Assembly: GCA_001412365.1 (NCBI GenBank)
Contig: LKUE01000386.1
Coordinates: forward strand, 1-15,835
Direction of reading: 5' to 3'
DNA length: 15,835 nt
Source: Desulfuromonas sp. SDB
GTDB lineage: Bacteria > SDB-A
Part shown: in pieces, positions 3,223-15,835 of the stretch
How positions within the stretch are numbered: position 1 is the first letter of the stretch
Layout of the letters: the number at the start of each line of letters is the position of its first letter
Notes under the pieces: model-generated
The model's database searches: none
The model's input: the letters and a program-made list of their open reading frames with translations, nothing else
Told to the model about the DNA's origin: nothing
Translations under genes and position numbers: made by a program

Positions 3223-4791
3223 TTAAGGAATTACTTTTCTCACTGCATCAATTATTGTTCCGTCCCGGTATTCGATTAAGGCGATAATTTCATCGGATAG
3301 TTGGGGAGCTTGAGGAATACCTGTAATATTTTCTACTTTGCGCTTAAGTTCAGAAATACTCATAACAGGTAAATTTGAATTTTTTAAATTTTCATTAAGA
3401 ATTCTGCCCATCTCCGTTGAAGGATTAAATGAAATCCCTTGTTCAGTTACAATAGCATCAATGGTTTCGCCGGGGGCAGTAACGGTGGTAACTGAATCTC
3501 TAATTACCGGTATTCTTTTACGGTAAGACGGTATTAAAATCATAGATAGATTAACCCCCGCCGCTACATCAAGATGTCCGCCGATTCCATGAAGTAGATA
3601 ACCATCGGAGTGGGTGTTGACATTTACATTAAAATCAATGTCCACTTCAGTTGCCCCTAAGAAACCTATGTCCTGGCGATCAACCAAGCAGCCCTTGGAA
3701 TGATAGTTGGCATAATAGGTTACCGGTGTTTCCCAGTGAGCAGGATCTTCATGTAGGGATTGAATAGATGCAGTATCGAAAACCTGTACATCAAACAAAC
3801 TGCCCACCAGTCCCTGATGAAGTAAGTCCACTGCATATTTTGTAATACCACCGGTGATAAAGGATGCAGTTATATTCTTTTCTGCCATAAGTTCACCCAG
3901 GTACTTGGTCACTGCTAAAGAGATTCCTCCGGCGCCAGTTTGAAATGAAAAACCCGGTTTAAGTAACCCAGATTTTTCAATGATTTCCACTGCATATTTA
4001 GCAATTAAAAGACGGGTTGGGCTTTTGGTGATGCGGGTAGTCCCGCTGACAATTTTATCAGCATCCCCAATTTGATCAATATTGACTACCCAGTCCACAT
4101 GAGTGGCAGGAATGGAATGGGGAATACAGGGATAAGCAACTAAATTATCTGTGATCACCACAACTTGATCAGCATAAATACTGTCAATATGGGAATAAGC
4201 CAGAGGTCCACATGCTGATTTTCCCAGAGATCCGTAGGCATTTCCATAGTCGTCAGCGGTGGGGGCAGCAATGAAAGCTACATCAATATGAAGATCGCCA
4301 TCTTCAATTGCCCTGGCTCTCCCCCCGTGGGATCGAAGAATAGGAATATCCGGGAGCATTCCTCCCAGGGAAACAAATTTTCCGATAGGACCGTTCATAG
4401 ATCCCTCAATTCTTCTGATTACTCCCTGTTCAATGAGCTCGATTAAAGGTTGATGTACAGGAAATAATGCGCTGGGGGCAAGAATAAGATCTTTGAATCC
4501 CATTGCCGCAATTTCGTTCATCACCAAGTTTACTACTGCATCCCCGTTGCGCAGATGATGGTGAAAACTAATTGTATCTCCGTTAGCTAAACCTGATTTT
4601 TCTATAGCTTCCCTTATGTCTTTACATAATTTTGTCTGTTTTGAAATTCTAGCAGGTCTGGATACGGGGATGGGCGGTGCTGCCCGGTTTCCTCCCCCTA
4701 AATTATTAAACGCCCCTTGATAAGGTTTTAAAATTTTACCATTTGCCTCCCTGGGGATTATTCGTTGTAAACTATTAGTTATGGTCTCCAT
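3223..4791 (-). CDS. citF: Citrate lyase alpha subunit (citrate:acetyl-ACP transferase), CitF
   Basis: The alpha subunit of citrate lyase swaps acetyl for citryl on the phosphoribosyl-dephospho-CoA arm of the gamma subunit, giving citryl-ACP and acetate. It is cytoplasmic. At 522 aa it is full length (enterobacterial CitF is about 510). The N-terminus keeps the family start IPREANGKILKPYQGAF (12-28). Other hallmarks are SFHHHLRNGD (75-84), LAPSALFPVH (104-113), RSHGGRARAIEDGDLHIDVAFIAAP (in two parts, 153-177), LVAYPCIPHSIPAT, QTGAGGISLAVTKYLG, ITGGITKYAVDLL and HGIGGHLDVAAGVN near the C-terminus. These are typical of a family I CoA-transferase-like fold. An AGGAGA ribosome binding site (4797-4802) lies 5 bases before the ATG at 4791. 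The gene begins 24 bp after the citDE stop, and DUF503 follows one base after its stop. The order gamma-beta then alpha matches other cit operons, but citC, citX and citG are missing here. Confidence 0.96.
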   Translation of the reverse strand: METITNSLQRIIPREANGKILKPYQGAFNNLGGGNRAAPPIPVSRPARISKQTKLCKDIREAIEKSGLANGDTISFHHHLRNGDAVVNLVMNEIAAMGFKDLILAPSALFPVHQPLIELIEQGVIRRIEGSMNGPIGKFVSLGGMLPDIPILRSHGGRARAIEDGDLHIDVAFIAAPTADDYGNAYGSLGKSACGPLAYSHIDSIYADQVVVITDNLVAYPCIPHSIPATHVDWVVNIDQIGDADKIVSGTTRITKSPTRLLIAKYAVEIIEKSGLLKPGFSFQTGAGGISLAVTKYLGELMAEKNITASFITGGITKYAVDLLHQGLVGSLFDVQVFDTASIQSLHEDPAHWETPVTYYANYHSKGCLVDRQDIGFLGATEVDIDFNVNVNTHSDGYLLHGIGGHLDVAAGVNLSMILIPSYRKRIPVIRDSVTTVTAPGETIDAIVTEQGISFNPSTEMGRILNENLKNSNLPVMSISELKRKVENITGIPQAPQLSDEIIALIEYRDGTIIDAVRKVIP

Positions 4792-4815
4792 TATGGTCTC
4801 CTGATTTAGTGATTG

Positions 4816-6039
4816 CTAAATTAAATTTAATTTACGTGCAAGCTTTAGTATTTTCAATGCCCTGGCTTCTACCGGAGCATCTATCATTTTTCTTCCCAAA
4901 CTGGCTACTCCATTTCCCTGGGCGCGAGCTTTTTCCAATGCTTCCACTACTTTTTGGGCATACTCAATTTCTGATGGGGAGGGCTGGTAAACACGGTGAA
5001 CTATGTCAATTTGTTCAGGATGAATTATTCCCCTTCCATCAAACCCCAGTGACTTGCTGGTAATGGTGTCCTGTTCTAAACCCTGAGGATTTGAAATATC
5101 GCTGTACACCGTGTCCAATGCCTGTAATCCATTTGATTTTGCCGCCAGTAAAATCATTGCTTTAGCCCCTTGAAGTTCTTCACCGCCAGGGGAGCGGGAA
5201 ATTCCCATATCTGCGGTAAAATCTTCAGCTCCAAAAGTTAAAGCCACATTGCGTTTACTTGCAGATGCAATTTGGGGTGCATTTAAAACTCCTTTTGCGG
5301 TTTCAATAAGGGGGATCAGAGCTAATTGCTTTTGTCCGTAGTTGTATTTTTGTTCAAAGTAGGAAATGATTTTATCCGCGTTTAAAATATCTTCCCGGCA
5401 TTCACATTTGGGAAGCAGCACCGTGTCAAAATTTTTTAACTTCATAACTACCCTAAGGTCTTGGATTCCTTCTCCGTTAAGCGGATTGATTCGAACCATT
5501 CTTTCCTGGTCTTGGATGGGAAGAAAATTCAATGCTTCTGAAATGAGATATCTGGCTGGTAATTTTTCATGAGGTGAAACTGAATCTTCTAAATCAAAAA
5601 TTAAAGCGTCAGAGCCAAATAGATAAGCATTTTGCATTAAATAGGGATTGTTGCCGGGAAGATATAACCTTGTCCTCCTCAGCCTGCTTTTTAAATCAAC
5701 TAAATTTTTGCTTATTGAATCAAGGGGGGGGTGAGAAAAATCATTTTGCTGGACAGAACTTCCCCAAGCTGTAAAAAGCGCTGCGGTTAATCTTGCTTTA
5801 ATTGTAAAATCCAGCGCACCGTCATCATTAATTGTAATTTTCACCGCCTGGATTTGATGTTCGCTTAAAATTTCAGATACTAATTTCTTTATGTGTTCCC
5901 GGTATAGAGTTTTTACTGAACTGTTAATGTTAATTATCAGTGATTCAGATGGTTCAACCTCCACGGTTAGATCAGATTTTTCTGGCTGACCCTCCAGGGA
6001 AGAACGCCCCAATTTAACTTTGCTTATAATTTTATTCAT
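4816..6039 (-). CDS. citDE: Citrate lyase gamma-beta fusion (CitD acyl carrier domain + CitE citryl-ACP lyase)
   Basis: One 407-aa frame carries two subunits usually made separately. Residues ~5-98 are CitD-like: LTVEVEPSESLIININSSV (24-42) and ITINDDGALDFTIKARLTAAL (68-88) match CitD 'IxINSSV' and 'DDKGALDxxLRARL'. Residues ~118-407 are a complete CitE, the HpcH/HpaI-fold lyase that cleaves citryl-ACP to oxaloacetate and acetyl-ACP. Its motifs are RTRLYLPGNNP, IFDLEDSV (Mg/substrate), VRINPLNG, LIPLIETAKG (metal Glu), FGAEDFTADMG (metal Asp), DTVYSDI, GFDGRGIIHPEQI and RKMIDAPV. The CitD attachment region is unusual: where enterobacterial CitD has LES(S/G)D with Ser14 modified, this has PEKSD (19-23), so the modified Ser may be S22. 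The linker holds a C8 tract. The ATG at 6039 has GGAG upstream. The preceding 80-bp gap contains TATATT-type sequence (6082-6087) that could be a weak promoter. Confidence 0.93.
   Translation of the reverse strand: MNKIISKVKLGRSSLEGQPEKSDLTVEVEPSESLIININSSVKTLYREHIKKLVSEILSEHQIQAVKITINDDGALDFTIKARLTAALFTAWGSSVQQNDFSHPPLDSISKNLVDLKSRLRRTRLYLPGNNPYLMQNAYLFGSDALIFDLEDSVSPHEKLPARYLISEALNFLPIQDQERMVRINPLNGEGIQDLRVVMKLKNFDTVLLPKCECREDILNADKIISYFEQKYNYGQKQLALIPLIETAKGVLNAPQIASASKRNVALTFGAEDFTADMGISRSPGGEELQGAKAMILLAAKSNGLQALDTVYSDISNPQGLEQDTITSKSLGFDGRGIIHPEQIDIVHRVYQPSPSEIEYAQKVVEALEKARAQGNGVASLGRKMIDAPVEARALKILKLARKLNLI
5724..5731 (-). other. C8 homopolymer in the CitD-CitE linker
   Basis: Eight consecutive C residues on the coding strand span codons 103-106 (CAC CCC CCC CTT, His-Pro-Pro-Leu). 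They lie exactly between the acyl-carrier domain and the lyase domain. Adding one C gives a TGA stop four codons on; removing one C gives a TAA stop within seven codons. Either slip would therefore release an almost free CitD domain of about 106-108 residues. That it is used in this way is inference; it may be incidental. Confidence 0.6.
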
Positions 6040-10296: not shown

Positions 10297-13200
10297 ATGA
10301 AAACTATCATAAATATTACTATTGATGGAAAATGTTTAGAGGTGGAGCCGGGAATGACCATCCTGGAAGCAGCTAGAAAGGAAAATATTGGAAATATCCC
10401 CACTCTTTGCTACGATCCTGAATTGCCTCCGTTTGGTTCTTGTTTTCTCTGCGTAGTGGAAGTTGAGGGCATTAACCGATTAGTTCCTGCTTGCTCAACC
10501 CCGGTCAGTAAAGGGATGATCGTTCATACCAATAATTCGAAAATCAGACAAACCAGAAAAACAGCATTGGAATTATTACTGTCCGAACACTATGCTGACT
10601 GTGAACCTCCTTGTTCACTGGCTTGTCCTGCCAATGTTGATGTACAAGGATATATAGCTTTGATATCCCAGGGAAAATATGAACAGGCAGTGGAATTAAT
10701 TAGAAAGTCTAATCCCCTCCCCATAACCTGCGGAAGGATTTGTGTCCGTAAGTGTGAACTTAAATGCAGAAGACTGATTATTGATGAAACCCCGGTGGGG
10801 ATTAATTTTCTAAAGCGTTATGCCACTGATCAGGAGAGGAAAAATCACCAGCCGGAAAAATCTCCTCCCCCCACCAAACATAAAATTGCCATAGTGGGAG
10901 GGGGTCCCACTGGATTAACCGCTGCTTACTTTTTAGCCCAAAAGGGGCATCAGGTTAAAATATTTGATATGATGCCGGAGTTGGGTGGGATGCTAAGATA
11001 TGGGATTCCTGAATACCGCTTGCCCAAAAAGATCCTGGATGAAGAAATTCAATTTATCCTGGACCTGGGAATAACGGTTGAAACCGGATCAAAACTGGGA
11101 TCTGATTTTACTATCAAATCTTTAAAACAACAAGGATTTGATGCGGTTCTGGTGGCATTAGGAGCGTGGAAAGCACAAAACATGAGACTACCCCTTGAAC
11201 ATGAGACCCCTCAAGTAATTGCGGGAATTGATTACTTGAGGAAGTACCAGCAGAACCAGGGAGAGCCCCTGAGTGGAAAGATTGTGGTGGTGGGCGGAGG
11301 AAATACCGCTATTGATGCTGCCAGAACTTCCTTAAGGGAAAAAGAGGTCAACCAGGTTACTTTAGTATACCGGAGAACTAAAAAGGAAATGCCTGCTGAT
11401 CCCCTGGAGATACATGCTGCCGAGGAAGAAGGGGTGAAATTTGAATTTTTAATTTCCCCCATTGAAATTATAACCGGGGAAGGGGAATTGAAAGCAATCC
11501 GCTGCCAAAGGATGAAACTAGGAGAACCGGATTCAAGTGGGAGAAGAAGACCCATGCCCATTCCCCAATCTGAGTTTGACCTTGAATGTGATTATCTGAT
11601 TTCGGCAATTGGGCAGAAAGCAGATGCGGAAAATCTGGATTTGGAGTTAACCAGATGGGGAACCATACAAATTGATGAAAACACATTGGAAACATCCCTG
11701 CCCGGTGTTTTTGCAGGAGGAGATGTGGTGTCCGGACCAGCAGTGGTTATAGATGCTATATCCCAGGGGCAGAAGGCTGCCGGCAGCATCCATCAATTTT
11801 TAACTACCGGTTCTATATCACTTACCCCCCCTCGATTTAATTCTTCCCGGGAGCTGTTTAAACAGGTAACTGGGGAATATTATGTGAAATACAGTGCTGA
11901 ACCCAGAAGTAAGATGAAGGAAGAACCAGTTGAACAGAGAATAAAGGACCACAGAGAGGTGGAATTGGGCATTGCTGATGAAGACGTACAAAAAGAATGC
12001 TCACGTTGTCTTGAGTGCGGATGTCTGATCAATGACACTTGCCTGTTACGGGAATATTGCAGTGAATACCAGGTGGAGGTAGATAATTATTTAGGAGAGG
12101 TAAAAATTAATCCCATTGACAATTCTCATCCACTAATTGTTCTAGATCCAAATAAATGTATCCTCTGTGGGAGATGTGTGAGAACCTGTCAAAATATTGT
12201 AGGTATCGGAGTATATGCCTTCATTGACCGGGGTTATCAAACTGTAGTAAAACCGGGAATGAGTGAGAGTTTAGCTGAATCAGACTGTATTGTATGCGGT
12301 AACTGTATTGATGCCTGCCCCACTGGCGCAATATTACAAAAACCAGCTGATAGTAAGCCTGTTCCTAAACAGCAAGAGCAAATCCCGCATAATTGCAGCT
12401 ACTGCTCGGTAGGATGTGATCTTATGGTAACCAAGAAAATCGGAGGAGCCTGGCAAATTGATTCAGACAGGGATGGAAAAGTTAAAGGACCAGGTCAAGG
12501 TTTACTTTGTTTTAGGGGAAAATTTGGCCATACTTATATAGATGATAAACAGCGTTTCACTTCTCCCCTGGTTAGAGAAAAAAATAAATTAACCCCAGTT
12601 AATTGGGATAAGGCAATTGATATTCTGGCGGATAAATTCAATTCAGTAACTGCTGCCGGCAATACTCAAGCAATGGGAATTTACTCATCTCCCAAGCAAA
12701 GTTTAGAAGAATTATATTTACTGAGAAATATTGCAGACCATCTGAAAGTGGAGAACTTCGGCAGTTTATTTTACCTGTTGAATAACATTGATCTTCATGA
12801 GTTAGACAGTACAGTGGGAATCACTGCATCTACCGGAGGATTTGAGGATCTAAAACAAGTTGATACTATCATCACCCTGGGAGAAATTGAACACGCCAAT
12901 CCTGTTGCCGCAATGAGAATTCATAAGGAATTAAATGATGGCAAAAGTTTAATTGCCATCAATCCTTCTCCCCGGGGCACCCTGGCTAAAAAGGCGGAAG
13001 TGGTGTTAGAGGTTAAACCTGGTGATGAAAGATATCTATTTGCCGGATTAATCAGAGAAATCGGAGAATCAAAACCAGTTCAGTGGGGTATTCTGGATAA
13101 ACTAACCAATGGGTACTACGATCTTCAGAATTCCGTCCAGCAGTTCAATTTAAGGAAACTGGAAAATTTAACCGGGGTCAGAAGAAGGTATTTGAAAAAA

Positions 13201-13968
13201 TTCATTTCAGAGTTATCTGATCCTTTTAAAAATATAATGTTGATGGTTAATGGAGACCAGGGAAATTTACGCAGTGAAGAAACATTAGGATTAATTACCA
13301 GTTATTTAATAATTACCGACCGCCTTTACCGAACTAACAATGGATTGCTGTTATTGCGTTCTCACAGCAATTCTCAGGGATTAGCTGAAATTTTCACCAG
13401 CTACAACCTGGCTGAATTGAAAGATAATTTCAGTTCGGGCAGGATAACCAACCTGTTAATTATGGGAGAAAATCCAGCAGTAGATAAAGCTTGTGCGGAA
13501 GTACTATCATCTTCTAATTTTCTTGCGGTTATTGATCTGTTCCCCACTCAGACCACCGAGATAGCAGATTTGATAATTCCCGCCACCGCATTTATGGAAA
13601 GTCCCGGCAGCATTATTTCCTCACAAAACCGTCTGGTAACCAGAGAAGCAGCTATCCCCACCTCTCTCTCCTATAACAATCAGGAAATTTTAATTAAATT
13701 AGCTGAAAAGTTAAATTGTCCCCTTCCCCCTTCTTCTAAACTTTTATCCCACTGTCTTGATCAGTTTAATTTGAAAAAGTATGTGTGGTCAGATACTGAA
13801 AAGTTTTACAAGTTAAAGCAGGAATTAAATTTGAAATTTCAAACTTCTGACGGAAAAGCTAATTTATGGCCCTTAAATGAACAAGCCAGATTAGTGGACA
13901 TTTCCGATAAAAAATTTGTTACCCTGGATCAATGGGTTGATAAATATAAGCAGAATATCGGTGTATAA
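10297..13968 (+). CDS. Fusion of [2Fe-2S] ferredoxin, GltD/NfnB-like FAD-NADP(H) oxidoreductase, 2x[4Fe-4S] and NuoG/FdhA-like domain with lost catalytic Cys/Sec (StnC-like)
   Basis: The 1223-aa multidomain redox protein is cytoplasmic. Residues 1-80 are a NuoG/HydA-type [2Fe-2S] ferredoxin (C38, C49, C52, C66). Residues ~100-160 are the GltD N-terminal iron-sulfur domain, with CEPPCSLACP and CGRICVRKCELKC (C102-C157). Residues ~195-505 are an FAD/NADP(H) module: FAD motif IAIVGGGPTG (197-206), EYRLPKKIL, NADP motif VVVGGGNTAIDAARTSLR (330-347), VYRRT (357-361, basic residues that favour NADPH) and FAGGDVVSGPAVVIDAI (472-488). Residues 567-590 are Cys-rich. Residues 620-675 bind 2x[4Fe-4S] (C621-C631, C664-C674). 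Residues 698-1200 are a molybdopterin-oxidoreductase fold with a [4Fe-4S] site (C700, C703, C707, C738). Where FdhA enzymes have the catalytic Cys/Sec and His (around 800-830), this reads SPKQSLEELYLL...FGSLFYLLNN, so formate chemistry is unlikely. No H-cluster motifs are present. GGGG (10287-10290) is the ribosome binding site. With the NuoE/F partners it most resembles an electron-bifurcating transhydrogenase. Confidence 0.92.
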   Translation: MKTIINITIDGKCLEVEPGMTILEAARKENIGNIPTLCYDPELPPFGSCFLCVVEVEGINRLVPACSTPVSKGMIVHTNNSKIRQTRKTALELLLSEHYADCEPPCSLACPANVDVQGYIALISQGKYEQAVELIRKSNPLPITCGRICVRKCELKCRRLIIDETPVGINFLKRYATDQERKNHQPEKSPPPTKHKIAIVGGGPTGLTAAYFLAQKGHQVKIFDMMPELGGMLRYGIPEYRLPKKILDEEIQFILDLGITVETGSKLGSDFTIKSLKQQGFDAVLVALGAWKAQNMRLPLEHETPQVIAGIDYLRKYQQNQGEPLSGKIVVVGGGNTAIDAARTSLREKEVNQVTLVYRRTKKEMPADPLEIHAAEEEGVKFEFLISPIEIITGEGELKAIRCQRMKLGEPDSSGRRRPMPIPQSEFDLECDYLISAIGQKADAENLDLELTRWGTIQIDENTLETSLPGVFAGGDVVSGPAVVIDAISQGQKAAGSIHQFLTTGSISLTPPRFNSSRELFKQVTGEYYVKYSAEPRSKMKEEPVEQRIKDHREVELGIADEDVQKECSRCLECGCLINDTCLLREYCSEYQVEVDNYLGEVKINPIDNSHPLIVLDPNKCILCGRCVRTCQNIVGIGVYAFIDRGYQTVVKPGMSESLAESDCIVCGNCIDACPTGAILQKPADSKPVPKQQEQIPHNCSYCSVGCDLMVTKKIGGAWQIDSDRDGKVKGPGQGLLCFRGKFGHTYIDDKQRFTSPLVREKNKLTPVNWDKAIDILADKFNSVTAAGNTQAMGIYSSPKQSLEELYLLRNIADHLKVENFGSLFYLLNNIDLHELDSTVGITASTGGFEDLKQVDTIITLGEIEHANPVAAMRIHKELNDGKSLIAINPSPRGTLAKKAEVVLEVKPGDERYLFAGLIREIGESKPVQWGILDKLTNGYYDLQNSVQQFNLRKLENLTGVRRRYLKKFISELSDPFKNIMLMVNGDQGNLRSEETLGLITSYLIITDRLYRTNNGLLLLRSHSNSQGLAEIFTSYNLAELKDNFSSGRITNLLIMGENPAVDKACAEVLSSSNFLAVIDLFPTQTTEIADLIIPATAFMESPGSIISSQNRLVTREAAIPTSLSYNNQEILIKLAEKLNCPLPPSSKLLSHCLDQFNLKKYVWSDTEKFYKLKQELNLKFQTSDGKANLWPLNEQARLVDISDKKFVTLDQWVDKYKQNIGV

Positions 13969-14063: not shown

Positions 14064-14082
14064 ATTGTTAAATTTATTACTA

Positions 14083-15264
14083 ATGGATATTGAAACTCTT
14101 ATATCACGAGGAAATTTCCAGCTGGCAATACAGAAATGTATGGCTAGTTTGAAATCTGATTTGAATAATGCTCAATACTGGTATTTACTGGGGAAAGCAT
14201 TCAGGAAAAAAAAAGAAACCCAATTAGCCCAAGAAAGTTTTTATAAAGCTACTTTAATTGATCCATCCTCAGATGCTTATTTTGATTTAAAAGCAATGGG
14301 AGGCTCTCCTGAAAACAAGAAATTTATTAGAGATATCAGCAGCGGGGAATTTTATCAATACATTCTCAATAAGCTGGAAGGTGTTTCTAAGACGGATTTA
14401 GAGTTGGACAATGAAATGGAAGATAAGAAAACCGAACAAGTATTACCTCCTCCTCCCCCTCCTCCTCCCCAGGAACTTAAAAAACAAAGTGAAATTAAAA
14501 CTTCAGGAGCGGAAAAAATTAAATCAGCAGCCAGGGATTTAGATGAACTAATTGAACAATATCAGCCTCCTTCCCCAGAAGCTGAAGAAGTTGAACTTCC
14601 TCAAGATGAGCCCCTGGAGTTAAGCGACTTAGAAAAAGATATTACTCCCCAGGAAGCAGAGCAGTTGGATTTTGAAAAGGAAAAAGAACCGGAAAATGAA
14701 ATTTCCCTGGAACATTTGGAAGCAGCAGCTAAAGAAGCAGAAAATGCTCAATTAGAAAAAGGATTATCCCTGGAAGATCTGGATACCATTGAGCAGGATA
14801 AACTTTCCCCCGAAATAACTTCTCCGGTTTCAGATATTAGAGCAGAACAAGGGGAAATTGACCAAACTGCTGAAGAAAAAATAATTCCTAAAGAATTACA
14901 TGAAGGCATGGATCTGATTCTGGATGCGCTGAAGGAAAAGCATGAACATAAATCCATATCAGAATCTGAATTAAGAGAAATAATGAAGAGTATTGTGGAA
15001 CGGGAAGTGGCATTGTTTATTATAATCAGAATAAATGAAAACAGTGTGGAATTCGGTGATAAGAAGTGGGAAGAGCTGTGCCGGATATTTGTGGAAGGAT
15101 GTAGGAGCATTCAGCAATCAGTGTTCAGCAGTATGATTGAATTTGAAAAGCATGCTTTAATTGGATCTTTTAATGATGATGTTCATATCACTGCATGTGC
15201 GCTTAAAAAGAATAGTGGAGTGTTGAGATTGGAACTTGAAAGAGTTTTAAATACAATTTTATAA
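14083..15264 (+). CDS. TPR - Pro8/acidic linker - Roadblock/LC7-like protein (unnamed)
   Basis: From the ATG at 14083 the protein is 393 aa; an in-frame TTG at 14065 would add six residues (MLNLLL) and cannot be excluded. The N-terminal ~65 residues look like a TPR pair (LISRGNFQLAIQKCMASLK, NAQYWYLLGKAFRKKKETQLAQESFYKATLIDP). A run of eight prolines (residues 122-129) and a long, highly acidic, Glu-rich, probably disordered stretch (~135-285) follow, with loosely repeated 'ISLEHLEAA/LSLEDLDTI' segments. The last ~100 residues alternate strand, helix, strands: VALFIIIRINENSVEF, KWEELCRIFVEGCRSIQQSVFSSM, HALIGSFNDDVHITACAL and NSGVLRLELERVL. The ending resembles the Roadblock/LC7 signature 'aNLGLLRLELRR'. 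Such domains bind or regulate Ras-like/MglA GTPases or act as dimeric scaffolds. No GTPase is visible here. No signal peptide or TM segment. The following gene starts 12 bases after its stop. The domain assignment is from pattern only. Confidence 0.75.
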   Translation: MDIETLISRGNFQLAIQKCMASLKSDLNNAQYWYLLGKAFRKKKETQLAQESFYKATLIDPSSDAYFDLKAMGGSPENKKFIRDISSGEFYQYILNKLEGVSKTDLELDNEMEDKKTEQVLPPPPPPPPQELKKQSEIKTSGAEKIKSAARDLDELIEQYQPPSPEAEEVELPQDEPLELSDLEKDITPQEAEQLDFEKEKEPENEISLEHLEAAAKEAENAQLEKGLSLEDLDTIEQDKLSPEITSPVSDIRAEQGEIDQTAEEKIIPKELHEGMDLILDALKEKHEHKSISESELREIMKSIVEREVALFIIIRINENSVEFGDKKWEELCRIFVEGCRSIQQSVFSSMIEFEKHALIGSFNDDVHITACALKKNSGVLRLELERVLNTIL

Positions 15265-15276
15265 CTGGTTGTAGTT

Positions 15277-15582
15277 ATGGAAGAATTGGAAAAAATACTG
15301 GAATTAGCGGGAATAAAAGAAGGCTATTATGCAAATCAGCAGAGCAATGTTGAGTTCAGCACCCTGCATGATCAGAAAAAGAATCTTTTCACATCCATAA
15401 AAGAAAATATTATTGAAAAAATGGAAAAATTAAGTGATGAGAAAATTCATTTCATTTCCCTGTTGATTGAAAAGGATATGGTGGTCATTGCCAAATCAGA
15501 ACATAAGATTGTTGCCGCTATTGGCGATAAAAATATAAACTTGGGATTAGTTAAAATCCAGATGATGAAACTGGTTTCCTGA
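15277..15582 (+). CDS. Small Roadblock/LC7-like domain protein (101 aa)
   Basis: The protein consists of one domain and nothing else. Order: a short N-terminal helix (MEELEKILELAGI), strand YYANQQSNVEFSTL, helix KKNLFTSIKENIIEKMEKL, then strands IHFISLLIEKDMVVIA and IVAAIGDKNINLGLVKIQMMKLV. The last stretch closely resembles the Roadblock/LC7 C-terminal signature ('vlaDpsaNLGLvRlelrr'), and about 100 residues is the usual length of MglB/LC7 domains. Roadblock proteins dimerise through a continuous beta sheet, and in bacteria they can be GTPase-activating partners of MglA. Since the upstream gene ends in a similar domain and is only 12 bp away, the two are likely co-transcribed and may form a heterodimer; this is inference. 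There is no strong Shine-Dalgarno before the ATG at 15277, suggesting translation depends on the gene before it. Confidence 0.75.
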   Translation: MEELEKILELAGIKEGYYANQQSNVEFSTLHDQKKNLFTSIKENIIEKMEKLSDEKIHFISLLIEKDMVVIAKSEHKIVAAIGDKNINLGLVKIQMMKLVS

Positions 15583-15835
15583 GCCCCGCCCCTCCCCGGA
15601 ATATTTAACCACAGATGAACACAGAGTATTAAGAGTTTCTGCTTCGCAGATGCCTCCCCACACACCATTATTAAACCACAGATGAACACTGAGCCCAGCC
15701 CAATACATCCACTTCCTACACAGAGCACACCACCCAGCCAGGAACACGAATTACCACTAATCCCAACATCCCACCCCGGAGTATAAAAAGAAGATGAAAA
15801 GAATTGTTTCATGATCAGGACTATCAGCTTGATGA
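15583..15835. other. C-rich non-coding tail with repeat remnants
   Basis: About 250 bases without a credible gene. Composition changes abruptly from AT-rich coding to C/A-rich plus-strand sequence (GCCCCGCCCCTCCCC at the start, many CCAC/CCCA words). It contains the repeated 20-mer described separately, a small hairpin TCTGC-TTC-GCAGA (15638-15650) and 'aacacgaattaccac' (about 15743-15757). Open frames here have repeat-derived, Cys/Gly/Trp-rich translations and are not believable proteins. An ATG at 15811 (MIRTISLM...) could begin a gene running out of the window, but it has no convincing ribosome binding site. Confidence 0.55.
15607..15693. repeat. Direct repeat pair of a 20-mer containing ACCACAGATGAACAC
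   Basis: A 20-base unit starts at 15607 (to 15626) and again at 15674 (to 15693). The copies differ only at position 17 (A in the first, T in the second) and start 67 bases apart. A shorter relative, ACACAGAG, occurs near 15719-15726. The words ACCACAGATGAACAC and AACACGAATTACCAC resemble dispersed intergenic repeats that recur in several uncultured FCB-group genomes (recalled, not searched). Confidence 0.6.

Follow-up and report, generated by a model that had tools for sequence, protein, structure and literature searches.

The two genes at the end of the window (the whole 15,835-nucleotide stretch analysed, a single contig from a genome of 3.1 Mb) form a real, conserved and somewhat unusual pair. 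It is best placed among the Roadblock regulators of MglA-type GTPases, with the GTPase detached. The pair is a fast-evolving, GTPase-less version of an operon layout that recurs in distant bacteria, in which a head-bearing Roadblock protein is encoded directly ahead of a small bare one. We give an even chance to a more specific reading, that the pair is the diverged, GTPase-detached half of a recurrent MglA module and acts in trans as a heterotypic Roadblock adapter or regulator. A recoding signal in the large gene of the sister genus is the more surprising part of the result.

The gene pair and its products

The two open reading frames lie 12 bp apart, as the sequence-only reading had claimed (Table 1). 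The large gene starts with the ATG at 14083, with an alternative TTG start at 14065, and stops with the TAA at 15264. Promoter and terminator signals around the pair did not exceed those of shuffled sequences. Searches of both proteins against Pfam, NCBIfam and PHROGs gave nothing usable except the TPR. The TPR head claimed for the larger protein was confirmed as one repeat (TPR_8, E 5e-5, residues 30–62), which is under the Pfam cut-off. The claimed Pro8 run and long acidic arm are present as well, the arm being a segment of 170 residues. The four orthologues share the order TPR, LPxPPPP, LDE motif, variable acidic linker and C-terminal domain, and the linker motifs LPxPPPP and LDE are invariant across the 4 genomes in the orthologue alignment. 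Therefore, these features of the large protein are not due to chance.

Table 1. Coordinates of the pair and of its parts in the window.
Feature	Position	Strand	Basis
Large gene, 393 aa (TPR / Pro8 / acidic linker / C-terminal Roadblock-like domain)	14083–15264	+	ORF; orthologues in 4/4 phylum genomes
TPR head, residues 1–100	14083–14382	+	Pfam TPR_8; kept in relatives
A9 run, in frame	14206–14214	+	Sister-genus counterparts A10–A11, frame offset by one base
Pro-rich acidic linker, residues 101–270	14383–14892	+	29% D/E, net charge –31
Pro8, residues 122–129	14446–14469	+	LPxPPPP invariant in 4/4 orthologues
C-terminal domain, residues 271–393, probably Roadblock-like	14893–15261	+	Weak in-register profile signal
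Small gene, 101-aa Roadblock/LC7-fold protein	15277–15582	+	Profile, AlphaFold model, structure matches

Both proteins had been read as Roadblock-like. For the 101-aa protein, the Roadblock/LC7 fold is well supported by profile and structure prediction. With a Roadblock profile built here it reached E 5e-7, while its shuffled versions did not get below 0.02, and the profile alignment spans the full length. Its best profile matches are the small Roadblock gene of the TPR-Roadblock/MglA operons described below. Pfam's own Roadblock model does not reach this protein, and a PDB sequence search with it gave no match. Its AlphaFold model (pLDDT 74) has the Roadblock/LC7 order of helix-strand-strand-helix-three strands-helix; as it was built from two sequences, its details are not trustworthy. 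In Foldseek, the best 50 rows for this model were all of Roadblock type, including MglB, Ragulator p14/MP1 chains and MglC (7ct3). MglB crystal structures are thus among the structure matches. The comparison of the model with Roadblock structures gave VIA Z 9–10 over the full length, and profilins, a fold related to Roadblock, reached Z about 8.5. The motif NLGLVKIQM had been taken for a strand and sits instead in the last helix of the modelled fold (helix 89–100).

For the C-terminus of the large protein, the Roadblock assignment is only suggested. It scored E 0.02–0.03 with the Roadblock profile in the expected register, and its score was shifted relative to shuffled Roadblock domains, yet a wrong register competes. 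A direct profile comparison with the Roadblock groups was not significant, and the AlphaFold model, built on an alignment of two sequences, failed at pLDDT 37. The domain probably adopts a Roadblock fold, judging from its position, the layout of the pair and the weak in-register signal; it is taken so because the combination of TPR-Roadblock and small Roadblock recurs elsewhere. The absence of a significant Roadblock profile match or a confident model for this domain counts against our main reading.

Conservation of the pair and its neighbourhood

The four genomes compared from this phylum, which represent two genera, all carry both genes. A contig search with a single protein found no relative, and a contig profile search with a three-row alignment found one, a 'candidate division WOR-3' metagenome contig. 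The gap seen in the window is replaced by a 4-base overlap of the two genes in the three relatives, and a similar spacing of large and small gene was found in G070-type loci.

In 4/4 genomes the pair stands directly behind the same redox gene, and this also counts against the main reading. It speaks for an alternative that we judge unlikely, in which the pair would serve the neighbouring NuoE/NuoF/formate-dehydrogenase-like redox enzyme as an accessory or assembly factor. The pair would then be a TPR chaperone that dimerises through its Roadblock part and has no relation to any GTPase. The position is held despite an identity of only about 25% between the two genera. However, the genes beyond the pair keep their order too (membrane protein, then UDP-sugar dehydrogenase in G000 and G002), so the redox synteny may reflect vertical inheritance only. 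Moreover, related TPR-Roadblock pairs elsewhere accompany MglA.

The small membrane protein is encoded next to the pair in the three relatives, and in G002 it is followed by the UDP-sugar dehydrogenase. The window contig ends just past the small gene. A second contig of this genome, C40, has at its start the counterparts of the membrane protein and the dehydrogenase, with other genes between them, and the locus probably continues there. From the gene order in the relatives, C40 (L125 1–243) is probably the continuation of the window contig after its end at 15835; no overlapping sequence was found between the window contig end and C40.

Three other features of the window were recorded. A 1223-aa fusion with NuoG/HoxU-like, GltD-like and formate-dehydrogenase-like parts is encoded at 10297–13968, behind NuoE and NuoF genes. 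On the minus strand at 3223–6039, a citrate lyase alpha gene adjoins a gene for a 407-aa acyl-carrier (gamma)-beta citrate lyase fusion. The non-coding contig tail carries two copies of the short sequence accacagatgaacac (15611–15690).

Recurrence of the layout in other bacteria

The profile of the small protein was run over 386 genomes. It matched two genomes of one distant family, and the matched gene encodes a 113-aa Roadblock protein. In both genomes this gene immediately follows a TPR-linker-Roadblock gene and is itself followed by genes for a longer Roadblock protein and an MglA GTPase. A further 20 stretches, 18 of them from other genomes, were inspected together with Pfam scans. They gave a TPR-linker-Roadblock gene followed by a Roadblock gene of about 118 aa, with MglA, in G229, G276, G139, G065 and G206; the layout with MglA is also present in G132 and G269. 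G066 has a TPR-Roadblock gene and a Roadblock gene of about 118 aa with no MglA within 5.5 kb. In several of the TPR proteins the Roadblock part was seen only by the profile built here and was missed by Pfam. By profile comparison (99.5%, E 1.6e-22), the C-terminal domains of these TPR proteins are paralogues of the small proteins encoded next to them. Since the loci were chosen from Roadblock matches, no frequency is given for the layout.

The same operon position can be occupied by alternative heads, which are a response regulator, DUF4388 or a hydrophobic N-terminal region. The usual order in distant bacterial families is a Roadblock gene with a variable head, a Roadblock gene of about 115 aa, then MglA and a long MglB. 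Thus, heads can be exchanged while the tandem of Roadblock domains stays the same, which is the pattern expected if the head-bearing protein is an adapter and the small protein its partner. Roadblock genes with other heads were also noted at L062, L064, L066, L072, L075 and L028, and several of them precede a small Roadblock gene and MglA. The window pair resembles these operons in that a TPR-linker-Roadblock gene closely precedes a small Roadblock gene. It differs from them in that MglA and the long MglB follow there, whereas the GTPase of the window's genome is encoded elsewhere and the C-terminus of the large protein is hardly recognisable.

The recurring operons are consistent with the earlier suggestion that the pair may be a paired scaffold or GTPase regulator. 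The first reading had also recognised no described system with this layout. No description of a TPR-Roadblock pair was found in the papers searched; however, several bacterial families share the layout itself, and each of its parts belongs to a known kind. The comparison suggests a frequent arrangement among the Roadblock regulators of bacterial Ras-like GTPases, in which one paralogue bears an interchangeable head and the other is bare. It also suggests that a pair of this kind can become separated from its GTPase.

Proposed relation of the pair to the distant MglA

No MglA-type GTPase gene was found within the window, in agreement with the first reading of the sequence, and the pair has no adjoining MglA in any of the four phylum genomes. 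The genome search for an MglA-like GTPase that had been recommended found a single one, on another contig. It belongs to a dnaX-ybaB-recR-mglB-mglA locus, beside a canonical MglB that is distinct from the pair. Each of the four genomes has exactly one MglA. Among the three relatives, MglB stands beside MglA in both of the two that were inspected. MglA is 89–90% identical and the pair only about 25% identical between the two genera, and therefore no co-evolution is visible. Both this and the lack of an adjoining MglA weigh against the main reading. In the window's genome, a further Roadblock-like protein of 130 aa (E 0.001) is encoded away from MglA on contig C244 (L002 1402–1794).

Roadblock genes away from MglA have been treated as orphans, and 328 MglB relatives uncoupled from MglA have been counted, none of them characterised (PMC4316618). 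The pair provides a defined test case among these uncoupled relatives. Compared with the MglA/MglB module of Myxococcus and Thermus (PMC4316618), the likeness is a Roadblock-fold protein in a genome that has MglA and MglB at another locus. The pair differs in having no MglA neighbour, in its only remotely similar sequence and in the TPR head on one partner. Three described proteins serve as precedents. MglC of Myxococcus xanthus is a Roadblock paralogue with less than 9% identity to MglB; it binds MglB (PMC7949163) and does not act alone. The likeness to MglC is the Roadblock fold and homology is claimed no further than that; MglC has neither a TPR head nor a tandem partner gene. RomY stimulates MglB, and RomY/MglB is a bipartite GAP complex for MglA (PMC9481161), i.e. 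a two-part MglA regulator made from different proteins. It resembles the pair by description only, and RomY has no TPR according to the description in that paper. Bd2492 of Bdellovibrio is a TPR protein that binds MglA and is encoded away from it (PMC3983030). Unlike the large protein, it is not described with a Roadblock domain.

A role as adapter or regulator on the distant MglA is favoured because of the single MglA encoded elsewhere and the precedents of MglC, RomY and Bd2492. The two Roadblock domains would most likely form a heterotypic dimer, and the TPR head and the Pro-rich acidic arm would recruit a partner. The Roadblock face may engage the MglB/MglA couple, with MglA as the presumed target, so that the pair would act in trans as an adapter or regulator. 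A doubtful but possible alternative is an orphan, free-standing scaffold, in which the Roadblock heterodimer holds a TPR-bound client and the link to a GTPase has been lost. It would account for the missing MglA neighbour in 4/4 genomes and for the fast divergence of the pair relative to a nearly invariant MglA, and G066 provides another such pair with no MglA nearby. On the other hand, MglA is kept in all four genomes.

A conserved frame offset at a poly-A run

The large gene of the three sister-genus genomes (G001, G002 and G003) is interrupted inside the TPR. The frame is cut by the same one-base offset exactly at a run of A11, A10 and A11, respectively (L005, L006 and L015). Run lengths and codon phases differ and the offset is identical. 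One extra A in these runs would give a protein of 305–317 aa that is collinear with that of the window; past the run, 43 codons of the zero frame are free of stops. Among the three genomes, pS was 0.77–1.06 versus a pN of 0.28–0.33 over the 32–33 codons before the run, and dN/dS was 0.12–0.18 over 60 codons after it. Synonymous sites are near-saturated, and the protein sequence is conserved before and after the run, each part in its own frame. The conserved offset and the protein-level selection on both sides suggest that transcriptional slippage, or else –1 frameshifting, is conserved in the sister genus. Transcriptional slippage would be the first choice and –1 ribosomal frameshifting the second. 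A check for a frameshift stimulator found no conserved RNA structure after the run, a strong one being seen in only one of the three species.

An assembly error or gene decay with no recoding is an improbable explanation of the offset. All three assemblies are drafts, at least one of them metagenome-assembled, and homopolymers are a usual place for assembly errors. Against this, the same offset would have to arise in three genomes with near-saturated synonymous sites at different run lengths and codon phases with both sides under selection in their own frames, and the downstream frame would begin in the middle of the TPR. Moreover, runs of this length are uncommon, with at least 10 A's in a row at 4 places in 338 kb of G003 and at 2 in 252 kb of G001. 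Of the genes sampled there, the large gene alone is clearly frame-split.

Under conserved recoding, the full-length protein of the sister genus would need a one-base slip on the poly-A run inside the TPR, and the slip would yield a mixture of short and full forms. In the window's A9 run, slips would give fragments of 47 or 54 residues. If true, slippage inside the TPR would mean that recoding of a signalling adapter is conserved. A further and rather unlikely proposal is that poly-A slippage makes the TPR head in adjustable amounts and so sets the ratio of TPR adapter to small Roadblock protein in a bacterial GTPase pathway, through a GTPase-detached Roadblock heterodimer found so far in one phylum.

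Thermus dnaX and Shigella mxiE (PMC1088944) likewise have a frame that is joined or split where at least nine A's or T's follow one another. In Thermus dnaX, half of the product arises by slippage, and mxiE needs the slip for its long product, as the sister-genus gene, known here from its sequence, would. The signalling-adapter setting is a difference, as it is absent from the slippage cases consulted in that paper. The dnaX gene of the window's own genome (contig C198) also has an A10 run (L020 6981–6990), which was absent from the dnaX stretch of G002. It is accompanied by near-immediate stops in the other two frames, the arrangement that PMC1088944 describes for Thermus dnaX.
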